Assembly (NCBI RefSeq): GCF_020037015.1
Contig: NZ_JAIQDE010000010.1
Span: 1 to 64,000 of the forward strand
Length of the DNA: 64,000 bases
Origin: Corallococcus sp. AS-1-6
Lineage (GTDB): Bacteria > Myxococcota > Myxococcia > Myxococcales > Myxococcaceae
Reading direction: 5' to 3'
Below are positions 1-51,300 of this stretch, in pieces. Both the position numbers and the translations under genes were made by a program. The notes below the pieces were generated by a model, which saw only the letters and a list, made by a program, of their open reading frames with translations, had not been told where the DNA came from and searched no databases. Within the stretch, counting starts at the first letter, position 1, and each line of letters starts with the position of its first letter.

Positions 1-828
1 CCCGGCCTCGTTTCGGTGGTGCTCACCGGGGATCGTTACGTCGCCTTTCTCGTTTCCACACCCTCTGTGACTACCTCGCAGTGGAAGGCCGCGCTCTTCA
101 GGGCGAAGAAGGCCTTCGCGCGGACGGACAGGTCCCATCTCCGCTTCGCGGAGTCATGCTTCCGCTTCGTCCAGGCGGCATGGGTCGACAACCTCTGCTC
201 GATCGCGGGGCCGCAACGGGGGAAGTGGGATTGGAAGGGGACCCTCTTCGCAAGTGACGCCCTGACCGAACAGGGGGGGATTGAGACGAATCCGCTGGAG
301 GCCTACGAACAGCGCGTCCGCCGTCATGTGGGCGAGTTTTATCGGTTCGTTCAAGCTGAATGCAGACACTACGACCGTAGCTGGATCGGGGGGCAATGGC
401 TGGAAGAGTCTCTTCCCCTGTTCATGCTTCCGGAGTTCGCGCCATCCCCCCTGCTCTCACGCCTGCTGGCGTGGGATGGGGGTGGAATGAACGACACGGG
501 CTGGAACTCGTTGCTGAATTTCTGGGAGAACCACCTTCATCTTCTGACCCGGAACCGGGAGCTCCTGGTGCGTGAGCGTGCCACCTGCTCCGCCTCCTAC
601 GAACGCCTGTTCAAGGAAACCGGACGGCCCATGCGGCCAAGGTTCCGGGAGCGCCAGTGGTTGAATCAGGTGCTCTGGGCCTGGTTCAGGACCGTGGACC
701 ACGACAACTACCGCAAAGGTCGCAAGCTCGAAGTGCTCCAGTTGCTGACACCCCATGAACTCCAGGAGCTGATGCCCAGGGACGAGAAGTGGAGGACGGA
801 GCTCGCCCAGGAAGCGGAGCCGCCATGA
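1..828 (+). CDS. C-terminal part of unidentified protein upstream of RdrB-like deaminase (possible RdrA)
   Basis: The reading frame is open to the left edge, so only the C-terminal roughly 275 residues are seen; the first possible start inside the window (GTG at 16) is probably internal. The segment is rich in Trp, Arg and His and has no signal peptide, membrane segment, P-loop or other motif I recognise. The stop codon (826-828) overlaps the ATG of the next gene in an ATGA, which implies translational coupling. In RADAR defence loci the large ATPase gene rdrA directly precedes rdrB, so this could be the RdrA tail. That is inference from position only, because the ATPase domain would lie outside the window. 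Its base composition looks less GC-rich at third positions than genes further right, consistent with an acquired island. Confidence 0.6.
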   Translation, partial: PGLVSVVLTGDRYVAFLVSTPSVTTSQWKAALFRAKKAFARTDRSHLRFAESCFRFVQAAWVDNLCSIAGPQRGKWDWKGTLFASDALTEQGGIETNPLEAYEQRVRRHVGEFYRFVQAECRHYDRSWIGGQWLEESLPLFMLPEFAPSPLLSRLLAWDGGGMNDTGWNSLLNFWENHLHLLTRNRELLVRERATCSASYERLFKETGRPMRPRFRERQWLNQVLWAWFRTVDHDNYRKGRKLEVLQLLTPHELQELMPRDEKWRTELAQEAEPP

Positions 829-3602
829 TGCACTCCGGACAAGGCAGGACACTGGGCGCGGTAGCGCCACGGAGCATTCCCGAAGCCTACATGCGGGCCG
901 AAGTGGCGAGCTTTCCACTGACCAGCGAGAAGGCCTTTACGGATGGCTTGATCACGCTGGAGCCCGCGCCGGACTCCCGGAAGGACAGACAGCGGACCTC
1001 GGACCTGTGGCGGGAGTGCGAGCAGCGCCTTTCGGAACATGCCAGCGGCTGGTCCCTGGACCGGCTCGTCGCCCTGCGAGACGAGTTCTGGTTCGCCACG
1101 TCCAGCCGAGACCAGGGGCGGCGCGGCCTGCACCGCGTGCCCATGGCCCGCTACCTGCGTGCCCTGGCCGAGGCACATCTGGAGCGCCGCCCCGGTGTCA
1201 CCGACATCGCGCTGCGCACGGATGTCGATGCGGTGGATGCCCTCACCCACTATCGCTGGCTCCTCTTCGCCATGCCGGAGGATCTGCTCCTCTCCGCGGT
1301 GCGGGAGGAACCTCCTCCGCTTCGGGTGAACATCGATCCCCCCCTCCTGATACGCCAACTGCTGGACCGGGGCGTGGCGGAGATCCACCACCACATCGGC
1401 GCGGGCATGGATTTTCCCCTCCTGTGGGCCGCCCTGCTGTCAGCGCTGGGGAACCCCTCGCTGGAGCACGAGGTGCTGCGGGGGCCGAACCTCCCCTTTG
1501 GTGATGGAACGCTGTTCCTGCGATGGCTGTTGGCCGCCGCAGTGGCGCGCTGCGTGCTCGCTGAGTACCTCCTGCGCGGCCAGAACAGATCCCTGCCGGA
1601 GTTCCTGCGGGAGCTGGCGAGCGCGTCGGCCTGGCAGTACCAGCGGCGGCGGGTGCTGGTGCGGACGCTGGACTCCCTGGCGAGCGGCTCCCAGGATCTC
1701 CTGCCGGACCTCGATCCCCTGCGGAGCCTCTACGCGGACCTCCACCCAATGGCGCTCCAGAACAACGTCGAGCCTCCTCCGACCATCGAGGACGTCTGGA
1801 GGCGGTGCGACCCCATCGCCGTCCGGCTGCGGTTGCGAACCCCCAATGGCGGGGAGCGATGGCTCATACGCCATGGCTTGGCCCGGCTCGACACCCGTGC
1901 CCACGAGCCGGAGGCCCCGGAGGACGACGCCTTCACCCGACTCTTCTGGCAGGTGATGCGGATCCGTTGCATCACCTACCGCAGCCTGGTGCAGCGGCCC
2001 ATGACCGCGGGCCTGCTGTGGTTCATCCGCTTCTCCGGGCGACTGCATCTGGCGACGGGCCCGCTGCGCTCCGTTCGCTCCGAGGCGTCCTATGACGTGG
2101 CGGGAGGAGGCCAGTCCATTGCCTCCCTCGAAATACGCACGGGCTCCAGGAAGACCCCCTCCCTCCTGGCCGAGGAGCTGTGGGCCCTGACCTACTCCTG
2201 GCGGCGTGTGCTGGAGAAGTTGAGCAGCGGGAACACCGCGGGGAGCCCACCCGAGTTCGGCGTGGTCGTGCTCCTGAAGAAGGAGCGGGACCCCAGACAT
2301 GCCTGGGAGGAAGGCCGCCCGCTCGCCTATGGCATGGAGACCCATGCCGAGCCGCAGGCACTCCACCCGCGCCAGTTGGGCGGGCGCTTCGCGGGCTACT
2401 TCGTCGAACAGTCCGCGCACGTCCGTTCGCTGGTGGAGCTGCTGCGGAGGATTCCCAAGCTGCCGTGGCTGGTGCGCGGGCTGGACGTGGCCGCGGATGA
2501 GCTGAGCGTGCCCACCTGGGTGCTCGCGCCCCTGTACCGCGCGGTTCGCCGGGGAGCCGCATGCGCCCCCGGGTTCGCCCACGCGCGCCACCCTCCACCG
2601 CTGCGAATGACCGCCCACGTGGGAGAAGACTTCCGCCACCTCATGGAGGGGCTGCGCCGCATCTACGAGTGCACCCAGTACCTGCTGGATCGCACCGGTG
2701 GGCGCCTGGGCCACGCCATCGCGCTGGGGCTCGAGCCCCAGCAATGGGCCGAATCCGTGGGGACCGTGATGATGCCCGCCGAGGACCGGCTGTGGGGCCT
2801 GGTCTTCGAGTGGCGGCTGTACAGCCAGTACCGGATGCCGCCGGAATTTCGCGCGGAGGCGCCCCCTTCTCGGACTCCGAAGGTGGAGAACACCCTCCGG
2901 GATCTGTCCGAGTTCATCTTCGGAAGAGCCATCCCACCCGCGGTGCTCGCCGAGGCCCACCATGTCCTGCATCAGCTCTGGTGCTGGCCCGTGGGAAGAG
3001 AGGACCGGGACCTGGGGCTGACCACCTTCACCCGCGCGCTCGGGCGCCTGCGCTGGCACGAAGTGCACCAGGCCGTCCATGTCTGCCACCTCCTCGAGCA
3101 CTACCGTGAGGATGAAGCGGTCTACCGGCGTGGGCAGCACCTGGTCGACGTTGCCCTGGACTCCTCGGAGGTGCAGGCGCTGCGCGCCGTCCAGGACGGC
3201 ATGCGCCGGGGCGTGGGCGCCCGGGGCATCGTCGTGGAGGTGAACCCGTCCAGCAACCTGCTCATCGGCAACCTGATGGACCTGCGCAACCACCCCATCC
3301 TGCGACTGTTTCCACCGCAGGTGCAGGAAGGCGCGCCACCTCCCGTGCCCATCGCGGTGGGCTCGGATGATCCCCTCACCTTCAGCACCTACCTCCTCCG
3401 GGAATACTCCCTCCTGTACGAGGCCGCGATGGGAGCGGGCTATCCGGAGCGGGACGTGCATACATGGTTGACTCACATCCGGCAGACGAGCATGGACGCG
3501 CGCTTCACCACCCCCTGGCGGCCCGACGCCCTGAAAATGGCGGACGACCTCCTGATGGCTTTGGAGGCCTACCTCTGGAAGCCCTTCCCGCGAGCAAGGT
3601 GA
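825..3602 (+). CDS. Large adenosine-deaminase-family protein, RdrB-like (RADAR defence)
   Basis: A 925-residue protein, far longer than a housekeeping adenosine deaminase (about 330-350). All ADA metal and catalytic signatures are present in order: EIHHHIGAG (His188/His190), AHVGED (His598, Glu601), RLGHA (His630), VEVNPSSN (Glu805-Asn811) and GSDDP (Asp848, Asp849). The roughly 400-residue insertion between the first and second motifs matches the divergent, enlarged deaminase RdrB of RADAR, which assembles with the ATPase RdrA and converts adenosine nucleotides or RNA to inosine forms during phage infection (family knowledge). The ATG at 825 is preferred over an in-frame start at 789 because it gives the ATGA overlap with the previous stop and has a GGAG-like site (816-819) upstream. 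No signal peptide, so cytoplasmic. A different large ADA-like amidohydrolase cannot be excluded without the upstream partner. Confidence 0.8.
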   Translation: MMHSGQGRTLGAVAPRSIPEAYMRAEVASFPLTSEKAFTDGLITLEPAPDSRKDRQRTSDLWRECEQRLSEHASGWSLDRLVALRDEFWFATSSRDQGRRGLHRVPMARYLRALAEAHLERRPGVTDIALRTDVDAVDALTHYRWLLFAMPEDLLLSAVREEPPPLRVNIDPPLLIRQLLDRGVAEIHHHIGAGMDFPLLWAALLSALGNPSLEHEVLRGPNLPFGDGTLFLRWLLAAAVARCVLAEYLLRGQNRSLPEFLRELASASAWQYQRRRVLVRTLDSLASGSQDLLPDLDPLRSLYADLHPMALQNNVEPPPTIEDVWRRCDPIAVRLRLRTPNGGERWLIRHGLARLDTRAHEPEAPEDDAFTRLFWQVMRIRCITYRSLVQRPMTAGLLWFIRFSGRLHLATGPLRSVRSEASYDVAGGGQSIASLEIRTGSRKTPSLLAEELWALTYSWRRVLEKLSSGNTAGSPPEFGVVVLLKKERDPRHAWEEGRPLAYGMETHAEPQALHPRQLGGRFAGYFVEQSAHVRSLVELLRRIPKLPWLVRGLDVAADELSVPTWVLAPLYRAVRRGAACAPGFAHARHPPPLRMTAHVGEDFRHLMEGLRRIYECTQYLLDRTGGRLGHAIALGLEPQQWAESVGTVMMPAEDRLWGLVFEWRLYSQYRMPPEFRAEAPPSRTPKVENTLRDLSEFIFGRAIPPAVLAEAHHVLHQLWCWPVGREDRDLGLTTFTRALGRLRWHEVHQAVHVCHLLEHYREDEAVYRRGQHLVDVALDSSEVQALRAVQDGMRRGVGARGIVVEVNPSSNLLIGNLMDLRNHPILRLFPPQVQEGAPPPVPIAVGSDDPLTFSTYLLREYSLLYEAAMGAGYPERDVHTWLTHIRQTSMDARFTTPWRPDALKMADDLLMALEAYLWKPFPRAR

Positions 3603-4405: not shown

Positions 4406-7144
4406 CTACGCATGGGCGCGGACAGGGGACTTCACCGCCCGGCGTGGGAGCCCTCCCCTGCCGCCGCGGCGCCACCGGACGCGGCGGGTCCACGCCTTGC
4501 GCGCCTCCTCCAGCGCCAGCATCCCAACAGCGAACGGCAGCACGAAGAGCCACAGCGAACCAGGCAGCGGAGCCGTGGCGAAGACGCGGTTGCCCCACGG
4601 CGTGTAGACGATGAAGCCCAGCAGCAGCAGCTCCACCGCCACGCCCACGAAGAGCAGCGGGTTGTCCCGCAGCCGCACGGAGAACGTGGGCGCGCGCTCC
4701 GTCCGGCACAACAGCACGTTCATCACCTGCATCACGACGATGGCCCCCAGGCACGCGGCCATGGCCCGCAGGTGCAGCGGCGCGTTCCACGCCAGCGGTT
4801 CGCCGTAGCTCCATCCGCCGCGCCCCAGCACGAAGAAGAAGGCCGCCATGCCCGCCGCTGCCTCCATCACCCCGAGGAAGAGGTACGCGCGCAGCAGCAG
4901 CGGCGCATCTAGCAGCCGCCTCCGGAAGTCCGAAGGCGGCTGGTGCATCACCCGGGCATGGGGCGGCTCCGCGCCCAGCGCCAGCGCCGGCAGCATGTCC
5001 GTGCCCAGGTCCACCGCGAGGATCTGCAGGATGCTCAGCGGCAACGGGATGCGCAGCAGCACGAAGGCCAGGTAGGGGACGATCTCCGGGACGTTGGACG
5101 TGAGGATGTACGTCAGGAACTTGCGGATGTTGGAGTAGACGGCGCGGCCCTCCTCCACAGCGGCCACGATGCTGGCGAAGTTGTCGTCCGCGAGCACCAC
5201 GTCCGCGGCCTCGCGAGCCACGTCGGTGCCCGCCAATCCCATGGCGATGCCGATGTGCGCCTCCTTCAAGGCGGGCGCGTCGTTCACGCCGTCCCCGGTG
5301 ACGGCCACCACCTCGCGCTTGCGCTTGAGGGCCATCACCACGCGCCGCTTGTCCACCGGGGCCACGCGGGCGAAGAGCACCTCGGGCGCGTCCAGCGCCA
5401 GTTGCAGTTGCGTGTCCGAAAGCCTCCGCAGCTCCGCGCTCGTGAGCACCACCGGCCGCTCCGTCCGCACCAACCCCACCTGCCGCGCCACCGCCTCCGC
5501 CGTGCGCGGATGGTCCCCGGTGACGAGGATGACGCGGATGCCCGCCTCGCGGCACCGCTGGATGGCCGCCGGCACCTCCGGGCGGAAGGGGTCCTCCAGG
5601 CCCACCAGCCCGGAGAGCACCAGCCCCTCCTCCCAGTGTGACGGCGACACCCCATCCGGCAGACGCCGGTACGCGAAGGCCAACACCCGCAGCCCCTCGC
5701 GTGCGAGCACCTCGCCCTCGTCGCGGAATCGCCCGGCCAGTTCCGGCGTCAGCGGGCGCACGCCCTGCTCTGTCTCCACCTCCCGGCACAGCGACAGCAC
5801 GGACTCCAATGCGCCCTTGGTGTGGAGCAAGCGCCCCTCCGGCATGCGGTGCACGGTGGAGAGGCGCTTGCGCTCGGGGTCGAAGGGCAGCTCGTCCTCG
5901 CGCCGCGCTTCCAGCGGGCCTGGCCGCGCGCGTGCGCCCATGTGCACCAGCGCCACCTCCATCGGGTCGCCCGCCAGCACCGGCGCTCCGTCACGACGCA
6001 CCTCCTGGAGCATGTGACACAGCCGTGCGCCCTCGAAGAGGCGCGGGTACGAGGCACCCAGCGCGACCAGCATCTGGGGCGAGGTGTCATGGCGGCCGCT
6101 GGCGACGAAGAGGGCGCGCGCCTCCATCCGGTTCTCGGTGAGGGTGCCCGTCTTGTCGGTGCAGATGACGGTCGCCGAGCCCAGGGTCTCCACGGAGACG
6201 AGGTCGCGCACGACGACGTTGCGCCGGGCCATGCGCTGCGACGCCATGGCCAGCGCCAGCGTGACGGTGGGCAGGAGCCCCTCGGGCACGTTGGCCACGA
6301 TGATGCCAATGGCGAACAGCAGGTTCTCCCACGGAGGCAGTCCCAGCGCGCGGCCGATGAGGAAGAAGACGCCACCGAGCGCCATGGCCAGCACCGCGAC
6401 GATGTGGCCCAGCCGGACGATCTCCCGCTGAAGCGGGGACAGCTCCGCGGGCGTCGCCTGCGTGAGGTGGGCGATGCGGCCGAACTCCGTCTGCATGCCG
6501 GTGGCGAAGACGAGCGCCCGCAGCCGCCCGGTGGTCAGGAAGGTGCCCGCCAACACCACGTTCGGGCTGCGCACCAGCTCCTCCTCGCCGCTGGGCCCGG
6601 CCTCGCGAAGCTCCGGCACGGACTCCCCGGTGATGGTGGCGTTGTTCACCCGCGCGCCATGCGTCTCCAGCACGCGCGCATCCGCGGGCACCTGGTCGCC
6701 CTCCTCCAGCAGGAGCACGTCACCAGGAACGAGCGCGGAAGCCGGCAGCAGACCGACCTGTGAGTCGCGCAGCACCTTCACCTCAGCGGGCAGCAGCCGG
6801 CGCAGCGACGCGAGCGCCCGCTCCGCGCGGTACTCCTGGACGAAGGAGAACACCCCGTTGACGAAGATGACGCACAGGATGGCGACCCCCAGCGTCTCCA
6901 TGCCCTGGCCGGGCTCCTGCCACGCGGACACGAAGGCCAGGGCCGCGGCCGCCCAGAGCACGAGCGCGAAGAAGTGGGTGAACTGATGCAGGAAGCGGCG
7001 CACCAGCGATTCCTGCCGGGCATGGGAGACCTGGTTGGGACCGAACTCGTGCAGGCGGCGCGCCGCTTCCGGGCTGGCCAGCCCCTCCTCGCGGCTGTCG
7101 AGGCTGTGCAGGCACTCGGCCACCGTGAGGTGATGGATCTTCAT
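4406..7144 (-). CDS. P-type II cation-transporting ATPase
   Basis: 912 residues, normal length for P2 ATPases. An N-terminal cation ATPase domain is followed by TM1-2, the actuator domain with the TGES loop ('ITGESVPE'), the TM4 signature NVPEGLLPT, the phosphorylation motif DKTGTLTENR (Asp330, codon at 6157-6155), a nucleotide-binding domain, the hinge GDGVNDAPALKEA and a C-terminal set of membrane helices. The PEGLL sequence with 'RMARRNVVVR' resembles the Na+/K+-ATPase-like (IIC) branch more than SERCA-type PEGLPA, so Ca2+ is not assured; Na+, K+, Ca2+ or H+ remain possible. It drives cation export or exchange across the inner membrane using ATP. It lies 42 bp behind the small exported protein and 33 bp before the LiaF-like gene. 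No strong Shine-Dalgarno sequence precedes the ATG. Confidence 0.9.
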   Translation of the reverse strand: MKIHHLTVAECLHSLDSREEGLASPEAARRLHEFGPNQVSHARQESLVRRFLHQFTHFFALVLWAAAALAFVSAWQEPGQGMETLGVAILCVIFVNGVFSFVQEYRAERALASLRRLLPAEVKVLRDSQVGLLPASALVPGDVLLLEEGDQVPADARVLETHGARVNNATITGESVPELREAGPSGEEELVRSPNVVLAGTFLTTGRLRALVFATGMQTEFGRIAHLTQATPAELSPLQREIVRLGHIVAVLAMALGGVFFLIGRALGLPPWENLLFAIGIIVANVPEGLLPTVTLALAMASQRMARRNVVVRDLVSVETLGSATVICTDKTGTLTENRMEARALFVASGRHDTSPQMLVALGASYPRLFEGARLCHMLQEVRRDGAPVLAGDPMEVALVHMGARARPGPLEARREDELPFDPERKRLSTVHRMPEGRLLHTKGALESVLSLCREVETEQGVRPLTPELAGRFRDEGEVLAREGLRVLAFAYRRLPDGVSPSHWEEGLVLSGLVGLEDPFRPEVPAAIQRCREAGIRVILVTGDHPRTAEAVARQVGLVRTERPVVLTSAELRRLSDTQLQLALDAPEVLFARVAPVDKRRVVMALKRKREVVAVTGDGVNDAPALKEAHIGIAMGLAGTDVAREAADVVLADDNFASIVAAVEEGRAVYSNIRKFLTYILTSNVPEIVPYLAFVLLRIPLPLSILQILAVDLGTDMLPALALGAEPPHARVMHQPPSDFRRRLLDAPLLLRAYLFLGVMEAAAGMAAFFFVLGRGGWSYGEPLAWNAPLHLRAMAACLGAIVVMQVMNVLLCRTERAPTFSVRLRDNPLLFVGVAVELLLLGFIVYTPWGNRVFATAPLPGSLWLFVLPFAVGMLALEEARKAWTRRVRWRRGGRGGLPRRAVKSPVRAHA

Positions 7145-7663: not shown

Positions 7664-7929
7664 GGCGCCCTCCGCGAATGGGATCCCATCTGAGATGGAA
7701 ATGGCGGGCGCGGTACACAAGGGAGCCCTCCGGGGAAGCGCGGCCTCACGGCGTCACGCCTGCCTCCAGGCCCCCTTTCGCGGTCCGTGCCCGCGCCGCC
7801 CCACCCTCCCACGCAGGCAGACCGTTACGCCGCGGCGGTCGCGCCACCACCGCCGGGAGGGACGCCATCGGAAGCGCAATGCCTAGCCTGTCCGCCTACG
7901 GCCGGACTCCTCCGGCCAAGGGAGGCAAC

Positions 7930-39313: not shown

Positions 39314-42300
39314 ATGACCGACACCGTCGACGTCCCCGTGTTTCCCCGGGGTCTGGCTCCTCGAAGCATCGCTGATGCCTTCGAGGCCCAGGCCGCGCTC
39401 CGTCCCCACGCCGTCGCCGTCCGCTGTGACGGACAGCAGCTCACGTACGCGGAGCTGGACGCGCGGGCGAACCGGCTCGCGGGCTGGTTGAAGGCGCGGG
39501 GCGTGGGCCGCGAGCGGCCCCAGGTGGGCGTGTGCCTGCCGCGCTCGGTGGACCTCATCGTCACGCTGGTCGGCATCCTCAAGGCGGGCGGTGCGTACGT
39601 CCCGCTGGATCCGGAGTACCCCTCGGAGCGGCTGGCCTTCATGGCCACGGACTCGCGCGTGCGGATCATCGTCACGCACGCCGGGCTGGAGTCACACCTG
39701 CCGTCCGGGGACTGGCGCACGCTCCGGCTGGACACGGACGCGGACGCGTTGGCTGCCTTCTGCGACGGGCCCATCGCGCGCGACGTGGTGGAGGACGACC
39801 TGGCCTACGTCGTCTTCACGTCCGGCTCCACGGGCCGTCCCAAGGGCGTGTGCGTGCCCCACCGGGGCGTGCTGCGGCTGGTGCTCGGCGCGGACTACGT
39901 GCACCTGGGCCCGGACGAGGTGCTGTTGCAGTTGGCGCCGGTGGCCTTCGACGCGTCCACGTTCGAGCTCTGGGGGCCGCTGCTCAACGGCGGTCGCGTG
40001 GCGGTGTTCTCGCGTGGGGCCGCCGCGCTGGACGAGCTGGGAGACTTCCTGCGCGAGGAGCGCGTGACGACGGCGTTCCTCACCACCGGCCTGTTCAACA
40101 CGCTGGTGGACCGGGGCCTGCCGGGCACCCAGACGCTGCGGCAGCTCTACACGGGCGGAGAGGTGATGTCGCTGCCCCACGCGCGCCGGGCGCTGGAGGC
40201 CCTGCCGCACACGCGCATCTTCAACTGCTACGGCCCCACGGAGAACACCACCTTCACGAGCTGCCAGCTCCTGCGCGCGCCGCTCGGCTCCGAGCCCGCG
40301 CCCATTGGCCACGCCATCTCCGGCACGCGGATGTACGTGCTGGACCCGGAGGGCCGCGAGCTGCCCGTGGGCGCCGTGGGCGAGCTGTACACGGGGGGCA
40401 GCGGCGTCGCGTGGGGCTACTGGGAGCGCCCGGACCTCACCGCCGAACGGTTCCTGCCGGACCCCTTCAGCACCGAGCCGGGCGCGCGCATGTATCGCTC
40501 GGGAGACCTCGCGCGGCGGCTCGAGGACGGCGCGGTGGACTTCGTGGGACGCGTGGACCACCAGGTCAAGGTGCGCGGCTTCCGCATCGAACCTGGCGAG
40601 ATCGAAGCGGCGCTGCGCCTGCGGCCCTCCGTGCAGGAGGCCGTGGTGATGGTGCGCGAGGACGTGCCCGGGGACCGGAGGCTCGTGGCGTACGTGACGG
40701 CGTCGGAGCCCCTGACGGCGCCGGTGCTGCGGGCCCACCTGAAGGGCCACCTGCCCGCGCACATGCTGCCTTCGGCCATCGTCGTCCTGGACGCGATGCC
40801 GCTCACGGCCAACGGCAAGGTGGAGCGCAAGGCGCTGCCGGATCCGCGCGACTGCCCCGGGGCCGAGGAGGACTTCGTCGCGCCGGAGACCGCGCTGGAG
40901 CGGACCGTCGCTCGGGTCTGGGCGGATGTGCTGCGCGTGGAGGCGGTCAGCGCCACGGCGGACTTCTTCGAGTTGGGGGGGCAATCCCTCCTGGCCACGC
41001 AGGCCATTGGCCGGCTGTGTGACGTGCTCCAGCGTCCCGTGCCGCTGCGCTTGCTGTTCGCGAACCCGCTCCTGCGGGACTTCGCCGCCGCGCTGGAGGT
41101 GGCCTCTCCGGTGGCGGAGCGCGCCGAGGCGCCCATCCCTCCGTGCACGGATGCCGCACGGGAACACCTGTCGTTCGCGCAGCAGCGGCTGTGGTTCCTG
41201 GACCAGTGGATGCCGGGCTCCGCGCTGTATTCGCTGCCATTCGCGTTCCGCCTGGAGGGGCTCCTGGACACGGCCGCGCTGGCGCAGGCGCTCCAGGCCA
41301 TGGTGGACCGGCATGAGTCCCTGCGAACCACCTTCCCTGGCGAAGGCGCCGCCATCCAGCACGTCGCCGCGCACCTGCCCGTGACGCTGGAGCGCGCGGA
41401 GACAGGCTCGGAGGAAGAGACGCTCGCGTGCATGCAGCGCGAAGCGGAGCGGCCGTTCGACCTGGCCCGAGGGCCGTTGTTCCGTGCGCTGCTCATCCGT
41501 GAAGCGGAGCGGCGGCACGTGCTGGTGCTCAACCTGCACCACATCGTCTCCGACGGCTGGTCCTTCGGCGTGCTGTATCAGGAGCTGTCCACGGCGTACC
41601 TCGCTCGGGAGCTGGCGCCGCTGCCCCTCCAATATCCCGACTACGCGGCGTGGCAGCGCCAGTGGCTCCAGGGCGACGTGCTCCAGCGGGAGCTGGGCTT
41701 CTGGGAGCGGCAGCTCGCGGACGTGCCGCATGTGCTGGAGCTGCCCACCGACCGGCCGCGTCCCTCCGTGCAGCGGTTCGAGGGCGCCGTCCATCGCTTC
41801 ACGGTTCCGGCGCGTCTCCAGCGGGCGCTGGAGGAGCTGGCGCGCCGTGAAGGGGCCACGTTGTTCATGGTCCTGCTCACCGGGTTCCAGGTGCTGCTGT
41901 CTCGCTACAGCGGCCAGCGGGACTTCGTGGTGGGCACGCCCATCGCCAACCGCACGCGGAAGGAGCTGGAGGGGCTCATCGGCTTCTTCGTCAACACGCT
42001 GCCCATCCGCGCTCGCATCGAAGGGGAGCCGTCGTTCCTCCAGTTGCTGGCACAGGTGCGCGACCGCGCGCTGGGGGCGTATGCCCATCAGCACCTGCCG
42101 TTCGAGAAGCTGGTGGAGGCGCTCCAGGTCGAACGCGAGCCGAGCCGGACGCCGCTCATCCAGGTGCTGTTCGCGCTCCAGAACGCGCCCACGTCGCGGC
42201 TCCAGTTCCCGGACGTCACCGTCACCCCGCTGACGCTCGACACGCGCACGTCCAAGTTCGACCTGTTCCTCGCGCTGGAGGAGTCCGGTGACGCGCTCGC

Positions 42301-45300
42301 GGGCACGCTCGAATACGCCACGGCGCTATTCGACACGGCCACCATCGAGCGTTTCACGGCGCACTACCTCCAGGTGCTGCGGTGCTTCGTGGAGGCGCCG
42401 GACCAAGCCATCGGAGACGCCGTGTTCCTGTCGGAGGTGGAGCGGCGGCGGGTGCTCCGCGACTGGAACGCTTCGGCGCGCCCCTACCCTTCGGAGCTGT
42501 CCATCGTGGACGCCTTCGCGCTCCAGGTCGCGCGGCGGCCCGAGGCCATCGCCGTGAGCCATGGGCCTGTGACGCTCACGTACGCGGAGCTGGATACGCG
42601 CGCGGAGCATCTGGCCCGGCGGCTGCGGACGCTCGGGGTGGGACGGCGCACGCCGCAGGTGGGCGTGTGCCTGCCGCGCTCGGTGGACCTCATCGTGTCG
42701 CTCCTGGCCATCCTCAAGGCGGGCGGCGCCTACGTCCCGCTGGATCCCGAGCACCCTTCCGAGCGGCTCGCCTTCATGGCCACCGATGCGCGGCTGGTCG
42801 CCATCGTCACGCATGAGGCGCTGGCGGCCGGGCTGCCCGCGGGGTCATGGACGCCCGTGTCCCTGGATGTTCCGTGGGATGCCGTGGAAGCACCGGCGGC
42901 CGAGCCCGTGATGCCGGTGGACCTGGCGCACATCATCTACACGTCCGGATCCACGGGCCGTCCCAAGGGCGTGTGCATCCCGCATCAGGGCGTGGTGCGG
43001 CTGGTGCTCAACCCGGACTACGTGCACCTGGGCCCCGGCGACCGGATGGCGCAGTCCACGACCATCGCGTTCGACCTGTCCACGCTGGAGATCTGGGGCG
43101 CGCTGCTCAACGGGGCCACGCTGGTCCTGTTCACCAAGGACGAGATCATCGACCCGGACGTCCTGGCGCGCAGGCTCGAGGACGAGCGCGTCACGCACAT
43201 GGTCCTGGCCACGGCGTTGTTCAACCATGTCGCCCGCTCGCGGCCCGAGGCCTTCCGGCACCTGTCCTGGATGATCTTCGGCGGCGAGGCCGCGGACGTC
43301 GCCAGCGTCAACGCGGTGCTCTCGCACGGCGGCCCCACGGCGTTGATCAACGGCTATGGCCCCACGGAGAACACGTCGTTCAGCACGTGGCACCGGGTGC
43401 CGCACGTGGGCGTCGAGTCCGTGCCCATCGGTGGGCCGATCGCCAACAGCACGGCGTACGTGCTCGATGCCCGGCTCCAGTGGGTGCCGCCTGGAGTCGT
43501 CGGGGAGCTGTTCGTCGGGGGTGACGGACTGGCGCTCGGGTATTGGGACCGGTCGGACCTCACGGCGGAGAAGTTCATCCCCCACCCGTTCAGCGACGTG
43601 CCCGGTGCCCGGCTCTATCGCACGGGCGACCTGGTCCGGCAGCGCGCGGACGGCGTCCTGGAGTACGTAGGCCGCCGCGATCATCAGGTGAAGCTGCGGG
43701 GCTTCCGCATCGAACCCGGCGAAGTGGAAGCGGCCCTGCGGCAGCACCCCGCCGCGCGGGAGGCACTCGTGCTGCTGCGCGAGGACACGCCGGGAGACCG
43801 CAGGCTCGTGGCCTACGTCGCGGCCACCGACACCCCGGACGCGGTGTTCCGCGAGTTCCTCCAGGCACGGCTCCCGAGCCACATGGTGCCCGCCGCCTTC
43901 GTCGTGCTGGAGTCGTTGCCCCTCACGCCCAACGGGAAGATCGACCGGCGCGCGCTGCCCGTTCCCGAAGCCTCCGGCACCGAGGGCTTCATCGCGCCCC
44001 GGAGTCCACTCGAAGCGCGGATCGCGGGCATCTGGGCCTCGCTGCTGGGCGGACGCGAGGTCGGAGCGCACTCCCACTTCTTCGACCTGGGCGGCCATTC
44101 GCTGCTGGCCACGCAGGTGGTGTCCCGCGTGCGGGATGCGCTGGGCGTGTCACTTCCCGTGCGCGCTCTCTTCGAAGCACCTCGCCTGGAGGCGTTCGTC
44201 CGGACCGTGGAGGGCCTGCTGGCGCAGGGGCACAGGGAGGCCTCGCGCATCCCCGTGGTGCCTCGCGGGGCCGGAGCGCTTCCGCTGTCCTTCGCGCAGG
44301 AGCGGCTGTGGTTCCTGGGCCGGCTCCACGACGCACCCGGCGTCTACAACATGCCCATGGCGCTGCGCCTGGACGGCCCCCTGGACGTCCCGGTGCTGCG
44401 CGCCAGCCTGGAGGCGCTCGTGTCGCGGCACGAGTCCCTTCGCACCACGTTCCCGGAGGGCGACCGCCCCACGCAGCACATCTCCGAGGCGCCTGTCTTC
44501 ACGTTGGACGTTCAGCGACTCGACGCGCGGGGGCCCGACGACTCGCGAGTCCAGGCGCGGCTGCGGCAGGAAGCGGACCGGTCCTTCGACCTCGCGCGGG
44601 GGCCGCTGTTCCGGGCGCTGCTGCTCCAGCTCGAAGGCACGTGCTCGGTGTTGGTGCTCAACCTGCATCACATCGTGTCCGATGGTTGGTCGCTGGGCGT
44701 GCTCTACCGCGAGCTGTCCGCTGAGTACGGCGCGCGAATCCAGGGCCAGCCCCCGCGACTGGCACCGCTGCCCGTGCAATACGCGGACTACGCGGCGTGG
44801 CAGCGCGAGTGGCTCCAGGGCGAGGTGCTCCAGGAACAGCTCGGCTTCTGGAAGGAGCAGCTCGCGGACGCGCCGCATGTCCTGGAGCTGCCCACCGACC
44901 GTCCTCGCCCCGCGGTGCAGCGGTTCGATGGCGCCACGTTCCGCTTCACGCTGCCGTCCGCGCTCCGTCATTCGCTGGAGGCCCTGTCCCGAGAGGAAGG
45001 CGCCACGCTGTTCATGACGTTGATGGCGGGATTCCAGTTGCTGCTGTCGCGCTACAGCGGGCAGCGGGACTTCATCGTCGGCACGCCCATCGCCAACCGC
45101 ACGCGTGAGGAGGTGGAAGGCCTCATCGGCTTCTTCGTCAACACGCTGCCCCTGCGGGCCCACCTGCGTGACGGTGCTTCCTTCCGTGAAGTGCTGCGGC
45201 AGGTGCGCGACCGGGCCCTGGGCGCTTACGCGCATCAGGAGCTTCCGTTCGAGAAGCTCGTCGAGGAGCTGCACGTCGAACGCGCCCTGAGCCACGGACC

Positions 45301-48300
45301 GCTGGTGCAGGTGATGTTCGCCTTGCAGAACGCTCCCGGCACGTTGCCCCAGCTTCCGGGCCTCCAGGTCCAGGCGGTGGAGCTGCCGCTCCAGACCTCC
45401 AAGTTCGACCTCAGCTTGATGCTGGAGGAGACCGGCGACGGACTCTCGGGCGTCCTCGAATACGCGAGCGCGCTGTTCGAGCCCCGTACCATCGAGCGGA
45501 TGGCGGGCCACTTCCACCGCCTGCTCGAAGGCGCGCTCCTCCGGCCCGATGCGGCCATCCACACCCTGCCCTGGCTGTCCGAAGCCGAGCGCCAGCAGGT
45601 CCTCGCGTCGTGGAACGACACCGCGCGCCCCTACCCGCGCGACGCATCCCTGGTGAGTGCCTTCAACGCGCAGGTGGCCGCGCGCCCGGATGCCATCGCC
45701 GTGCGACACGGTTCGGATGCGCTCACCTACGCGGAGCTGGATGCTCGCGCCAAGCAGCTCGCGTGGGCGCTCCAGGCTCAGGGGGTCGGACGGGATGCGC
45801 CGCGTGTCGGCGTGTGCCTGTCACGCTCCATCGAGCTCGTCGTGGCGCTCGTCGCCATCCTCAAGGCCGGTGGCGCCTACGTGCCGCTGGACCCGGACTA
45901 CCCGGCGGACCGGATCGCCTTCATGGCCTCGGATGCGCGGCTCGTCGCGGTCGTCACCGCGTCGGCGCTCGCGGATCACGTCCCCTCGGGACCGTGGAAG
46001 GTGTTGCGGCTGGATGCGCTCCCGGCGGGTCTGGAACGCCGTGCGCCGCCGGAGGCGTGCACGGGCGATGACCTGGCGCACATCATCTACACGTCCGGAT
46101 CCACGGGCCGTCCCAAGGGCGTGTGCATCCCGCATCGGGGGGTCGCCCGGCTGGTGCTCGACCCGGACTTCATCCAGCTCCGTCCCGAGGACCGCATCGC
46201 CCAGACGTCCACGGTCGCCTTCGATGCCTCGACGTTCGAGCTGTGGAGCGCGCTGCTCAACGGTGCGACGCTGGTCCTGCTGTCCAAGGAAGAGGTGATC
46301 GAGCCCACGGTGCTCTCGCGGCGGGTCCGTGAAGAGGGCATCACGGTGCTGTTCCTGACCACGGCGCTCCTCAACCACGTCGCGCGCACGGACCCGTCGC
46401 TGCTGAAGGGCCTGCGGTGGCTCCTGTTCGGTGGCGAGGCCGCGGACCCGGCCTGCATCCGCGCCATCCTCTCCCACAGCGCACCGGAGCACATCGTTCA
46501 CGCCTACGGGCCCACGGAGAACTCCGCGTACAGCACGTGGTTCTCTCCGACGCACGTCGACCCTGACGCGGTGACGGTGCCCATCGGGCGCCCGGTCTCC
46601 AACAGCACGGCGTACGTGCTGGACGCGCACCTGCACCCGGTCGCACCCGGCATCGTCGGCGAGCTGTTCGTCGGCGGGGATGGCCTCGCCTGGGGCTACT
46701 GGGAGCGGCCCGACCTCACCGCGTCCGCCTTCGTCCCCCACCCCTTCGCCTCCACTCCGGGAGCCCGCCTCTACCGCACGGGCGACCTCGTCCGTCAGCG
46801 CCACGACGGCGCCTTCGACTTCGTCGGACGCCGCGACCACCAGGTCAAGGTGCGTGGCTTCCGCATCGAGCCCGGTGAAATCGAAGCCGTGCTGCGCCAG
46901 CACCCGGCCGTGCGCGAGGTGCTGGTGCTCGTGCGCGAGGACTCGCCCGGCGACAAGCGACTGGTCGCCTACGTCACCTTCCGTGACTCCGTGACGACCA
47001 GCGACCTGCGCGCCCACGTCCAGGCTTCACTTCCCAGCCACATGGTCCCCTCCGCGTTCGTCCTGCTGGACGCGCTGCCGCTCAACGCGAACGGCAAGGT
47101 GGACCGCCGCGCGCTGCCTGTGCCCGAAGGCGACGTGCCGACCTCGGCGGGCACACGGCCCCTGACGGCGCTGGAGCAGACGTTGAGCGCCATCTGGTGC
47201 GCGGTGCTGAACCGCGCCCATGTCCCCGTCGATGCGAACTTCTTCGACCTGGGTGGACACTCGTTGCTGGCCACACGCATCGTCTCCCGGACGTCGCAGG
47301 TGCTGGGCGTTCCCGTCCCCGTGCGGACCCTCTTCGAGTTCCCCACCATCGAAACCCTGGCGCGCGTACTGGAAGGACGCGCGCGGGACTCGTCGCTGTC
47401 CGTGCCCGCGCTCCGGAGCTGGCACCGGGAAGGACCGCCGCCCCTGTCCTTCGCGCAGGAGCGGCTCTGGTTCCTCAATCAGTTCCACTCGGACCGGGCC
47501 GCGTACAACATGCCCATGGCGCTGCGGCTGGAGGGAGCGCTGGACGTGGACGCCATGGAGGACGCCCTCCAGGCGCTGGTGGACCGGCACGAAGCCCTGC
47601 GCACAGTGTTCCCAGGTGAGGGCGTCCCCGCGCAGCGCATCCTGCCCCGGTCGCCCGTGTCCCTTCGCCGGGTCGAAGCCTCGTCCAGGCACGAAGCGGA
47701 AGCCCTGTTGCGCGAGGACGCGGAGACGCCATTCGACCTCGCGGAGGGCCCGCTGTTCCGTGCCCTCCTGGTGCGCGAGGACGCTGAACACCATGTGCTG
47801 CTGATCAACCTGCACCACATCGTGTCCGATGGCTGGTCGATGGGCGTGCTCTACCGCGAGCTGTCCGCCGAGTACGAAGCGCGGCACGCGGGCCGGGCCT
47901 CGGAGCTGACGGACCTGCCCGTGCAGTACGCGGACCATGCGGCGTGGCAGCGCCAGTGGCTCCAGGGCGACGTGCTCCAGCGGCAGCTCGACTTCTGGAA
48001 GCAGCAACTGGCGGACGTGCCCCACGTCCTGGAGCTGCCCACCGACCATCCTCGTCCAGCAGTGCAGCAGTTCGCGGGCTCCACCCACGTCTTCACCCTT
48101 CCGCGAAGCGTACTCGAAGCGTTGGAGGGCCTGGGCCGCCAGGAAGGGGCCACGCTGTTCATGACGTTGATGGCGGGCTTCCAGTTGCTGCTGTCGCGCT
48201 ACAGCGGGCAGCGGGACTTCATCGTCGGCACGCCCATCGCCAACCGCACGCGTGAGGAGGTGGAAGGCCTCATCGGCTTCTTCGTCAACACGCTGCCCCT

Positions 48301-51300
48301 GCGGGCCCACCTGCGCGACGGTGCTTCCTTCCGTGAAGTGCTGCGGCAAGTGCGCGACCGGGCCCTGGGGGCGTACGCGCACCAGGAGCTTCCGTTCGAG
48401 AAGCTCGTCGAGGAGCTGCACGTCGAACGCGCGCTGAGCCACGGGCCGCTGGTGCAGGTGATGTTCGCCTTGCAGAACGCTCCCGGCACGCCGCCCCAGC
48501 TCCCGGGCCTCCAGGTCCAGGCGGTGGAGCTTCAGACCCCGACCTCCAAGTTCGACCTCACGCTGGCCCTGACCGAAACAGCGGAAGGCCTCAGCGGCAC
48601 GTTCGAGTACGCGACCTCCCTGTTCGAACCCCGCACGCTCGAACGGATGGCGGACCACTTCCGGCGTCTCCTCGAAGGCGCGCTGCATCAGCCGGACGCG
48701 GCCATCCACGCCCTGCCCTGGCTGTCCGAAGCCGAGCGCCAGCAGGTCCTCACGGCCTGGAACGACACCGGCCGGCCCTATCCGAGGGACCTCTCCCTGG
48801 CCCAGTCCTTCGAAGCCCAGGTGTCCACGCGTCCGGAGGCCATCGCAGTGCGCCATGGTGCCCAGACGCTCACCTACGCGGAGCTGGACGCCCGCGCCAA
48901 TCAGCTCGCGTGGGCGCTCCAGGCGCAGGGCGTTGGACCGGATGCGCCTCGCGTGGGCGTGTGCCTGCCTCGCTCCATCGACCTCATCGTGGCGCTGGTC
49001 GCAGTGCTCAAGGCGGGCGGCGCCTACGTGCCGTTGGATCCGGACTACCCGGTGGATCGCCTGGCGCTCATGATCTCCGATGCGAAGGTGCATCGGATCA
49101 TCACGAGCACGGCGTCATCGAACCGCTTCTCGTCGGACAGCGTGGGATTCATCCACATCGATGCGTTGGAGGCCCCCGCGCGTTCGGGCTCGCCCCACGA
49201 CGCGACGCGCTTCCATCCCGCGCAGCCCGCGTACCTCATCTACACCTCCGGCTCCACGGGCCGGCCCAAGGGCGTCTGCGTCCCGCATCAGGCCGTGATG
49301 CGGCTGGTGATGGATCCGGACTACATCTCCTTCGGCCCTGAAGACCGCGTGGCCCAGGCCGCGACGGTGTCCTTCGACGCCTCGACCTTCGAGGTGTGGG
49401 GCGCGCTGCTCAATGGCGCGACGCTCGTCCTGTTCTCGAAGGAGGACATCATCGAGCCCGCGACGCTGGCCCGGGGTCTGCGGGACGAACGCATCACCGC
49501 GCTGTTCCTCACCACGGCCCTCTTCAACCACGTCACCCGCATGGAGCCCACGGCCTTCAACGGCCTGTCCACGCTCCTCTTCGGTGGCGAGGCCTCGGAC
49601 CCGGCCTGCGTGAACCGGCTGCTCGAACACGGCGGGCCTCGCAGGTTGGTGCACGTCTATGGCCCCACGGAGAACACCACGTTCAGCACGTGGCAGCTCG
49701 TCACGAAGCCCGTCTCAGGCACGGTGCCCATTGGCAGGCCGCTCTCCAACAGCACGGCGTACGTGCTGGACGCGCACCTGCACCCGGTCGCACCTGGCAT
49801 CGTCGGTGAGCTGTTCGTCGGCGGGGATGGCCTCGCCTGGGGCTACTGGGAGCGGCCCGACCTCACCGCGTCCGCCTTCGTCCCCCACCCCTTCGCCTCC
49901 ACTCCGGGAGCCCGCCTCTACCGCACGGGCGACCTCGTCCGTCAGCGCCACGACGGCGCCTTCGACTTCGTCGGACGCCGCGACCACCAGGTCAAGGTGC
50001 GTGGCTTCCGCATCGAGCCCGGTGAAATCGAAGCCGTGCTGCGCCAGCACCCGGCCGTGCGCGAGGTGCTGGTGCTCGTGCGCGAGGACTCGCCCGGCGA
50101 CAAGCGACTGGTCGCCTACGTCACCTTCCGCGACTCCGTGACGGCCAGCGACCTGCGCGCCCACGTCCAGGCTTCGCTTCCCAGCCACATGGTCCCCTCC
50201 GCGTTCGTCCTGCTGGACGCGCTGCCGCTCAACGCGAACGGCAAGGTGGATCGCCGCGCGCTGCCCCGTCCTTCCGACGCCGCGGAGACGGAGGAGGCCG
50301 GCGTGCTGCCTCGCACGCCGCTGGAACAACAGCTCGCGGACCTCTGGGCGGAGGTGCTGGGGCGCACGGTCCACAGCGTCACCGCGAGCTTCTTCGACCT
50401 GGGCGGCCACTCGCTGCTCGCGGCGCAGCTCGTGTCCAAGCTGTCGGAGCACTTCCCGTTCAAGGTCCCGCTCCAGGTCCTCTTCCAGAGTCCGACGGTC
50501 GCGGCGCTCGCGCAGTGGCTGCAGGCGAAGCTCACGCCCGATGCACCGGCGGCCACGCAGGGGCCCACGCTCCCGGAGGGCATCGTGCGGCTCCAGGAGG
50601 GACGCCCGGACCTTCCGCCGCTGTGGTGCATGCACCCGGTGGGCGGCACGGTGTTCTGCTACCAGGACCTCGTGCGTGCGCTCGGTCCCGGCCGCACGGT
50701 GTACGGCTTCCAGGCTCCCGGCGTGAACGGCGAGTGCCCGCCGCTCACGAGCATCGAGGTGCTCGCGTCCCACCACCTGGGCGCCATGCTCCAGTGGCAA
50801 CCCCAGGGGCCCCACTACCTCGTGGGCCTCTCCATGGGCGGCACCATCGTCTACGAGATGGCCCAGCGCATGCGCGAGCTGGGCATCCCCCCGGCGCTGC
50901 TCGTTTTCCTCGACACGCCGGGCCCCGGCCAGATGCCCACGCGGTTCGAGGACGACGCCGCGCTGCTCGCGGCCATGTTCGGCGATGACACCCCGACGCT
51001 CGCCCAGCGCCTGCGCGCCCTGCCCCCGCATGAGCAGATGAAGGAGGTGCTGCGGCAGGCCCGCGAGGGCGCGACGGTGCCGGACTCGTATTCGCTGCGC
51101 GACCTGGAGATCTTCCTGGACGTGTGGAAGGCCCACATGCGCGCCCTCTTCAGCTACGCGCCCGTGCCCTACGAGGGCGCGGCCACGTACCTGAAGGCCC
51201 AGGTCCACGTGCCGCCCCACCCGCTGCACCCGGAGCAGCCGTGGCAGGAGCTCGTGCGGCATGGACTGGAGGTGCTGCCCGTGCCCGGCAACCACCAGAC

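Follow-up and report, generated by a model that had tools for sequence, protein, structure and literature searches.

The DNA shown above opens a stretch of 64,000 nucleotides, here called the window, which is the first 64 kb of contig C1 in the 9.5 Mb, 82-contig genome of Corallococcus sp. AS-1-6, a predatory soil bacterium. Near its start lies a gene for an adenosine deaminase that is coupled to an upstream gene, and the locus raises the question of whether this pair is a form of RADAR, the rdrA-rdrB system described in E. coli, and whether it would operate in the same manner. We favor, with a probability of roughly 0.6, the reading that the pair belongs to a RADAR variant in which a nucleotide deaminase would be gated by an RdrA that binds ATP and is probably impaired in hydrolysis; the role in defence is presumed. 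An initial annotation of the locus had proposed RADAR or a RADAR variant. The variant part of that proposal stands, with an RdrB homologue and an RdrA-like P-loop ATPase upstream, and standard RADAR does not, as curated score cut-offs are missed and both the second Walker B acid and the sensor-1 Asp are absent.

The deaminase gene and the elements of its active site are arranged as follows.

825 to 3602, forward strand: rdrB-like adenosine deaminase of 925 residues, with ATG at 825, a stop ending at 3602 and a frame that overlaps rdrA by ATGA.
1386 to 1394, forward strand: HxH zinc motif, codons 188-190 (H188, H190), the counterpart of E. coli RdrB H152/H154.
2616 to 2627, forward strand: HVGE, codons 598-601, with a zinc His and the catalytic Glu, the counterpart of E. 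coli H498/E501.
2700 to 2714, forward strand: GRLGH, codons 626-630, with the clade-specific Gly626 (Asp in other RdrB proteins) and zinc His630, from alignment.
3366 to 3371, forward strand: catalytic Asp pair of SDDP, codons 848-849, from alignment with RdrB proteins.

The rdrB frame has no internal stop, and the frame before it, open from base 1, ends in a TGA at 828 that creates the ATGA overlap. Both the 925-residue deaminase with its catalytic motifs and the coupling to an upstream gene had been recognized in the initial annotation, and both held. Residues H188, H190, H598, E601, H630, D848, and D849 were invariant in a 14-row RdrB alignment (five proteins of the window clade, five distant myxobacterial proteins, and four from plasmids), and the motifs extend to H598-V-G-E601-D and G629-H630. 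The spacing of H598, E601, and H630 equals that of H498, E501, and H530 in E. coli RdrB, as numbered in PMC9994260, a study of E. coli RADAR. The window protein matched the NCBIfam RdrB model with an E value of 2e-45 (155.6 bits), the PADLOC RdrB model at 1e-35, and the E. coli RdrB chain 8fnw in the PDB at 1e-26, and because of these three values the match is not attributable to chance. The analysis thus confirms, at the level of predicted protein, that 825-3602 encodes an RdrB homologue with a complete active site. Cad1/CAAD, a CARF-fused adenosine deaminase of type III CRISPR, also converts ATP to ITP in immunity (PMC11645235). It resembles the window protein in being an adenosine deaminase, but the partner of the window deaminase is an RdrA-like ATPase, and neither CARF nor Cad1 was among its matches in PADLOC and NCBIfam, which were to RdrB and to general adenosine deaminases.

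The upstream gene is interrupted in the window, as detailed below, and an intact paralogous locus (L006) lies on contig C5, approximately 71 kb from the split rdrA. Its first gene encodes a P-loop ATPase of 875 residues and its second, overlapping the first by GTGA, an RdrB-like protein of 928 residues. The C5 and window RdrB proteins are 63-64% identical to each other. Thirteen other Corallococcus genomes carry a single copy, and the C5 copy is closer to these (74-88% identity), which rules out a recent duplication as the origin of the two copies. By these identities the C5 copy is the genus-wide type. The C5 RdrA matched the NCBIfam RdrA model with an E value of 1.1e-7 (30.7 bits) and the PADLOC model at 3.5e-5. 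A profile-profile comparison of eight clade relatives with four plasmid RdrA proteins gave 95% probability and an E value of 2e-8 over the ATPase domain, pairing LPIDNVDRS with ITFDDIDTQ and AAGHQEF with ATGDLRL, and the Walker A motif, RGxGKTT, is intact in the clade. The assignment of the upstream gene as a putative RdrA-like P-loop ATPase is therefore supported.

The difference from RADAR lies in the residues presumed to hydrolyse ATP. E. coli RdrA carries Walker B residues D221-D222 and sensor-1 residue D253 (PMC9994260), and these residues were visible in our alignment. In the clade that includes the window and C5 loci, Walker B reads Asp-Asn in 22 of 22 readable loci, with each genome locus counted once: 13 Corallococcus genus copies, the window rdrA, six other loci of the family, and two from other families of the order. 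The other RdrA loci, 14 from Myxococcota and seven from plasmids, are Asp-Asp in all 21 cases. For these counts the paired records L031/L066, L033/L069, L034/L065, L035/L068, L037/L064, L038/L043, and L039/L070, assigned to single genomes on matching scores, lengths, and coordinates, were each counted once; L032/L067 (G009), in which the contig starts inside rdrA, and a partial match in G188 (L089) with no RdrA match were left out. The clade also lacks the sensor-1 Asp; the residue that aligns with it is His, Arg, Gln, or Ala. Replacement of the second Walker B acid by an amide is the standard AAA+ change that stops hydrolysis while ATP binding is kept. The Asp-Asn motif would thus probably impair hydrolysis in clade RdrA with ATP still bound; loss of hydrolysis is a prediction, because catalysis might still rely on a second conserved Asp, two positions after the Asn (IDNVD).

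The Asn loci form a single group that is also marked in RdrB. In a tree of 40 RdrB rows they fell on one side of a branch with support of 100, requiring one change, and none of 500 shuffles was as low. The tree was built quickly and has long branches beyond the clade; L067 was unlabelled in it, and L036 (taken as G004) and three plasmid RdrB proteins were left out. At RdrB position 626, four residues before the last zinc His, all 21 clade rows carry Gly and all 18 others carry Asp (GDR[IL]GH), as do three further plasmid RdrB proteins. Within RdrA, residues 226-300, the Walker B stretch, are the best conserved (0.92-0.96 identity between L006 and six species), which argues that Asp-Asn is not the product of decay; identity in the C-terminal third is 0.49-0.76 in the same comparison. 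Mean ratios of nonsynonymous to synonymous substitution rates (dN/dS), from seven species and 21 pairs per gene in one flank context only, were 0.21 for rdrB, 0.44 for rdrA, 0.50 for a membrane-protein gene that accompanies rdrB in the genus, and 0.20 for a neighbouring dipeptidase gene. These ratios indicate purifying selection, and the pattern fits that of an effector and a sensor.

We consider it unlikely that these loci are ordinary RADAR, with an RdrA that still hydrolyses ATP through the first Walker B Asp and the Asp two past the Asn, and with differences that reflect drift in a diverse family. The family is indeed diverse: among the RADAR systems tested in PMC9994260, all of which defend, the RdrA ATPase is only 22-25% identical and part of RdrB 24-28%. 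The clade also keeps Walker A and the first Asp of Walker B. Absence of the sensor-1 Asp is not special to the clade, since six of the 14 Asp-Asp myxobacterial loci lack it as well, with Gln (L050-L052, L054) or His (L055, L058) instead; the Aureibacter RdrA, from a plasmid locus, aligns poorly at this site. However, the other 21 loci are all Asp-Asp, the Asn is exclusive to one clade and coupled with the Asp-to-Gly change in RdrB, and under drift the Walker B stretch would not stay the most conserved.

Several observations pull against the favored reading as a RADAR variant, among them the sensor-1 exceptions and the second conserved Asp of IDNVD just described. Scores fall short of the curated NCBIfam cut-offs, 155.6 bits against an equivalog cut-off of 800 for the window RdrB and 30.7 bits against 600 for the C5 RdrA. 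RADAR comprises an RdrB dodecamer, with insertion 3 and a Glu-Arg three-fold interface, and an RdrA heptamer; the Glu triplet at this interface in E. coli RdrB (E595-E597) falls beside Leu-Arg-Asp in a phmmer alignment whose placement here is uncertain. A profile search of the PDB with clade RdrA retrieved no RdrA chain, only two ORC4 matches at an E value of 0.26, and the AlphaFold model of RdrA (pLDDT 43.7) was too poor for fold comparison; a single-sequence PDB search with the C5 RdrA likewise gave no match. The companion membrane-protein gene is found somewhere in 20 of the 27 rdrB-bearing genomes of the family, so it is missing from seven, and it occurs without rdrB in five family genomes, two of them as weak partial matches. 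Finally, defence systems are seldom so close to fixation in a single genus, a pattern that would fit a role outside defence.

If the clade is a RADAR variant, its RdrB would deaminate ATP and dATP to ITP and dITP, as reported for E. coli RADAR (PMC9994260). RdrA would bind ATP and assemble over the RdrB active site, and E. coli RdrA docks as a funnel on RdrB in the same study; the clade protein would be a slow- or non-hydrolysing switch and not a motor. Its fast-evolving C-terminal region may sense the trigger, a phage signal, activation would poison the nucleotide pool, and the membrane protein could be an accessory that anchors, senses, or executes. In E. coli, both active sites are needed for defence and overexpression of RdrB is toxic; mutation of the ATPase site abolishes defence, yet RdrB alone deaminates ATP and makes ITP in vitro (PMC9994260). 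The Asn clade makes the role of the RdrA ATPase in RADAR directly testable, because this natural clade keeps the ATP-binding motif but replaces the presumed catalytic acid. Our literature search, which did not cover the original RADAR paper or supplementary locus tables, where such loci may be listed, found no paper on myxobacterial RADAR or on this Walker B change in RdrA. On defence systems in Corallococcus it found one paper, about CRISPR.

The clade shares with known RADAR systems (E. coli, PDB 8fnt/8fnw and 8hr7; Citrobacter rodentium; Aliivibrio pVSAL840) a tandem rdrA-rdrB arrangement with close or overlapping frames, and the annotated Aliivibrio system has the same gene order as the Corallococcus loci. 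Clade RdrA proteins are 875-968 residues long by gene prediction and the window RdrB 925, compared with E. coli chains of 947 and 799. The likeness extends to the zinc tetrad, catalytic Glu, and Asp pair of RdrB and to the Walker A motif and aligned ATPase domain of RdrA. Clade proteins differ from those of RADAR in the Asp-Asn of Walker B and the missing sensor-1 Asp, in the Gly four residues before the last zinc His of RdrB, and in scores far below the curated cut-offs, and the Corallococcus loci differ further in being nearly fixed in one genus and in having the extra membrane-protein gene in the opposite orientation. Accessory membrane proteins are found in RADAR subtypes, with Csx27 in rdrABC and a SLATT protein in rdrABCD (PMC7699616). 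The extra genes of these subtypes travel with rdrAB, as in Corallococcus, but the Corallococcus companion is on the opposite strand and is SLATT-negative by Pfam and by profile. We also observed an rdrA-rdrB-SLATT operon on the Aureibacter tunicatorum plasmid pAT1 (L093), in which only the SLATT gene is annotated and rdrA and rdrB are listed as 'hypothetical protein'.

The companion is a mostly helical protein of approximately 380 residues. All 14 Corallococcus genomes with the genus copy encode it immediately 3' of rdrB, on the opposite strand, and it occurs in each of the three flank contexts described below; in G004 the gene runs off the contig. A simple hydropathy scan of two loci gave two to three membrane segments, with possibly four by eye. 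In the window locus a relative that is 36% identical stands divergently beside rdrA (L013:7765-8961, start inferred), and three other family genomes with distant rdrAB carry a 61-62% identical relative approximately 3.3 kb past rdrB. The companion is likely a partner of rdrAB, not an obligatory one: its presence in 20 of the 27 rdrB genomes and in five genomes without rdrB, noted above, rules out an obligatory subunit. Pfam gave no SLATT match, with the window-side companion scanned as L013:7957-8961, short of the stop at 7765, and profile comparison with the Aureibacter SLATT protein gave a probability of 0.2%. Its assignment as SLATT/RdrD or another named defence protein was rejected, as family searches returned no match, and an AlphaFold model (pLDDT 58.1) was too weak for fold comparison.

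A more far-reaching reading, which we regard as improbable, is that in this clade RADAR, an assembly driven by ATP, has been remodelled into a switch based on ATP binding. RdrA would have lost hydrolysis, RdrB would have changed next to its last zinc ligand on the same branch, and control would have moved to a membrane-bound third subunit, giving a nearly permanent system in Corallococcus that may act against phage or even have a part in predation or development.

Three side observations concern membrane proteins and neighbours at related loci. A 44% identical companion relative in G039 (L077, contig C46) occurs without rdrAB within the 16.5 kb read; it adjoins orthologues of genes that flank the genus copy (F10, F43, F88), and the rdrAB of this genome is on another contig. 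Among Asp-Asn loci without the companion, small genes with four predicted membrane segments stand next to or near rdrA (L041:4753-5499, L045:9349-9945, L044:3894-4649, and L040:14048-14374), and those of L041, L045, and L044 had no Pfam match above noise. In G067 a nucleoside 2-deoxyribosyltransferase-like gene (L044:4659-5117) is directly upstream of rdrA, with a Pfam value of 1e-6, just below the cut-off.

The distribution of the system bears on whether it serves defence at all. An rdrB match was present in 15 of 16 Corallococcus genomes, 14 of which carry the genus-type copy; G012 has only a 37% identical relative, with an Asp-Asp RdrA, and G014 gave no rdrB match. Across the family the gene was matched in 27 of 96 genomes and across the phylum sample, family genomes included, in 31 of 195. 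Distant relatives, all below 60% identity, occur in seven of 72,556 plasmid records. Carriage by phages or viruses received no support: 50,697 phage records held no relative, and of 85 pattern matches in viral contigs not one could be confirmed. The rdrA and rdrB frames are predicted to overlap in 10 of the 13 Corallococcus genomes measured; the gaps of 55-62 in the other three may reflect the choice of start codon. Three flank contexts were found in the genus. The first, beside F3, comprises G000, G001, G002, G003, G005, G007, and G013, with G004 placed here by its left flank; the second, beside F8/F9, comprises G006, G009, and G011; and G008, G010, and G015 have F31/F32, F40/F41, or F15 in common.

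These data allow a domesticated, RADAR-derived nucleotide deaminase with a cellular task, such as development, prey killing, or controlled lysis, in place of phage defence, and we hold this to be quite unlikely. The genus-type copy is nearly fixed, seven copies adjoin the same dipeptidase gene, and the dN/dS of rdrB is close to that of this dipeptidase; RADAR in general was reported in 270 of approximately 38,000 genomes, or under 1% (PMC9994260). Against domestication, both rdrA (most of all in the C-terminal third) and the membrane-protein gene are fast-evolving, as sensors in conflict would be, the genus has three flank contexts and not one, the stretch with the window copy is missing from G001, and the clade is present in only six of 80 family genomes outside Corallococcus. 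Whichever role applies, this RADAR-like module, nearly fixed in one genus and paired with a companion membrane protein, offers a setting in which to study the function of RADAR away from rare, mobile defence islands.

We turn last to the window copy itself, whose rdrA is distributed over two contigs.

1 to 77, no strand assigned: terminal 77 bp of an IS256-type insertion sequence (IS), not rdrA, recurring at the ends of contigs C50 and C3.
78 to 85, no strand assigned, with the other copy at C5:247215-247222: 8-bp target-site duplication GCAGTGGA, from the C5-end and C1-start junctions.
78 to 828, forward strand: 3' part of the interrupted rdrA-like gene (C-terminal region), from a search with the intact C5 paralogue.
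C5:245116-247222 (L013:9117-11223), end of contig C5: 5' part of the interrupted rdrA-like gene, from the same search.

Searching the genome with the intact C5 ATPase recovered the protein itself, C5:245155-247227 (residues 15-654), and C1:64-705 (residues 646-855). When the halves were joined at the duplication, omitting the element and one repeat, they formed a single frame of 949 residues. The initial annotation had suggested looking upstream for an ATPase of approximately 900 residues ending at 828; the Walker A and B domain lies on C5, and the 275-residue piece in the window has no domain or family match. A working locus is not supported for the window copy, because its rdrA is split. Window position 1 is the contig end. 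The account of a gene merely cut there was rejected on two grounds: the first 77 bases are found again at the ends of other contigs, and the gap has an 8-bp duplication on both sides. Because these 77 bases are an IS end, only 78-828 belongs to rdrA.

Bases 1-77 are identical to the end of C50 (1-77), and the end of C3 is the same, shifted by two bases. They share 89% identity over 75 bases with an end of a G013 element whose product is a Transposase_mut (Mutator-type) protein (Pfam E value 9.9e-16), a transposase that we take to be of IS256 type. The element ends read GAGGT...GTGGAAACG. The left junction carries GAGGTCGT...GTGGAAACG and the right junction a similar end, inverted; these ends of one repeated element recur on C11, C32, and C37 for the left and on C3 and C50 for the right. 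A second 8-bp duplication by the same element, CCGGACCT, was read by eye at the C32/C50 junction. Two points speak against the IS256 assignment: a search of this assembly did not recover the body of the element, and the G013 copy showed no flanking duplication. As judged from the junctions, the window rdrA is split by an IS256-type insertion sequence, and rdrB is intact. By eye, the gene interrupted at the C32/C50 ends (G000) looks serine/threonine kinase-like. Separately, contig C4 carries an element of approximately 740 bp (L005:1464-2200) with inverted ends TGTCAGGGAAGTTGTCG... (by eye); immediately inward of one of them is a stretch that shares 94% identity with the IS end at window 1-77. 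The element presumably encodes a small protein resembling an HNH endonuclease with a zinc-knuckle-like tail.

The window copy could be a decaying remnant without function, with only the C5 copy of consequence; we put this at slightly below an even chance, and it is compatible with the clade as a RADAR variant. The window rdrA is split and an intact paralogue exists, as a remnant would have it. However, rdrB and both rdrA halves are free of frameshifts and stops, which suggests that the insertion is recent, and the in vitro activity of E. coli RdrB alone (PMC9994260) means that window RdrB could be active or harmful if expressed. The window RdrB probably lacks regulation, is silent, or relies in trans on the intact RdrA from C5, and the split copy is a natural experiment on whether RdrB does harm or stays silent when its own RdrA is lost.

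The window copy, unlike the genus copy, sits in an accessory stretch, as judged from its absence in G001 and from a neighbouring gene that had no match in six other Corallococcus genomes. In G001, the gene left of the companion (86% identical) is followed by approximately 540 bp and then by DNA matching the window from 9087 onward, so that the companion, rdrA, rdrB, and the next genes to approximately 9.0 kb are absent, and this genome has one rdrB only. The gene beside the window rdrB, which we take to be LiaF-like, was the one searched for in those six genomes, without a match at an E value of 1e-20. Close to the site of the missing stretch, G001 holds fragments (L096:2627-3388) approximately 90% identical to parts of the P-type ATPase gene at window 4406-7144, a broken copy of it. 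Farther along the window, 39400-50430 contains about four copies of a module spaced at 3.15 kb, 64-74% similar to many stretches of G001 (L097), which look like the repeated modules of a large synthetase.

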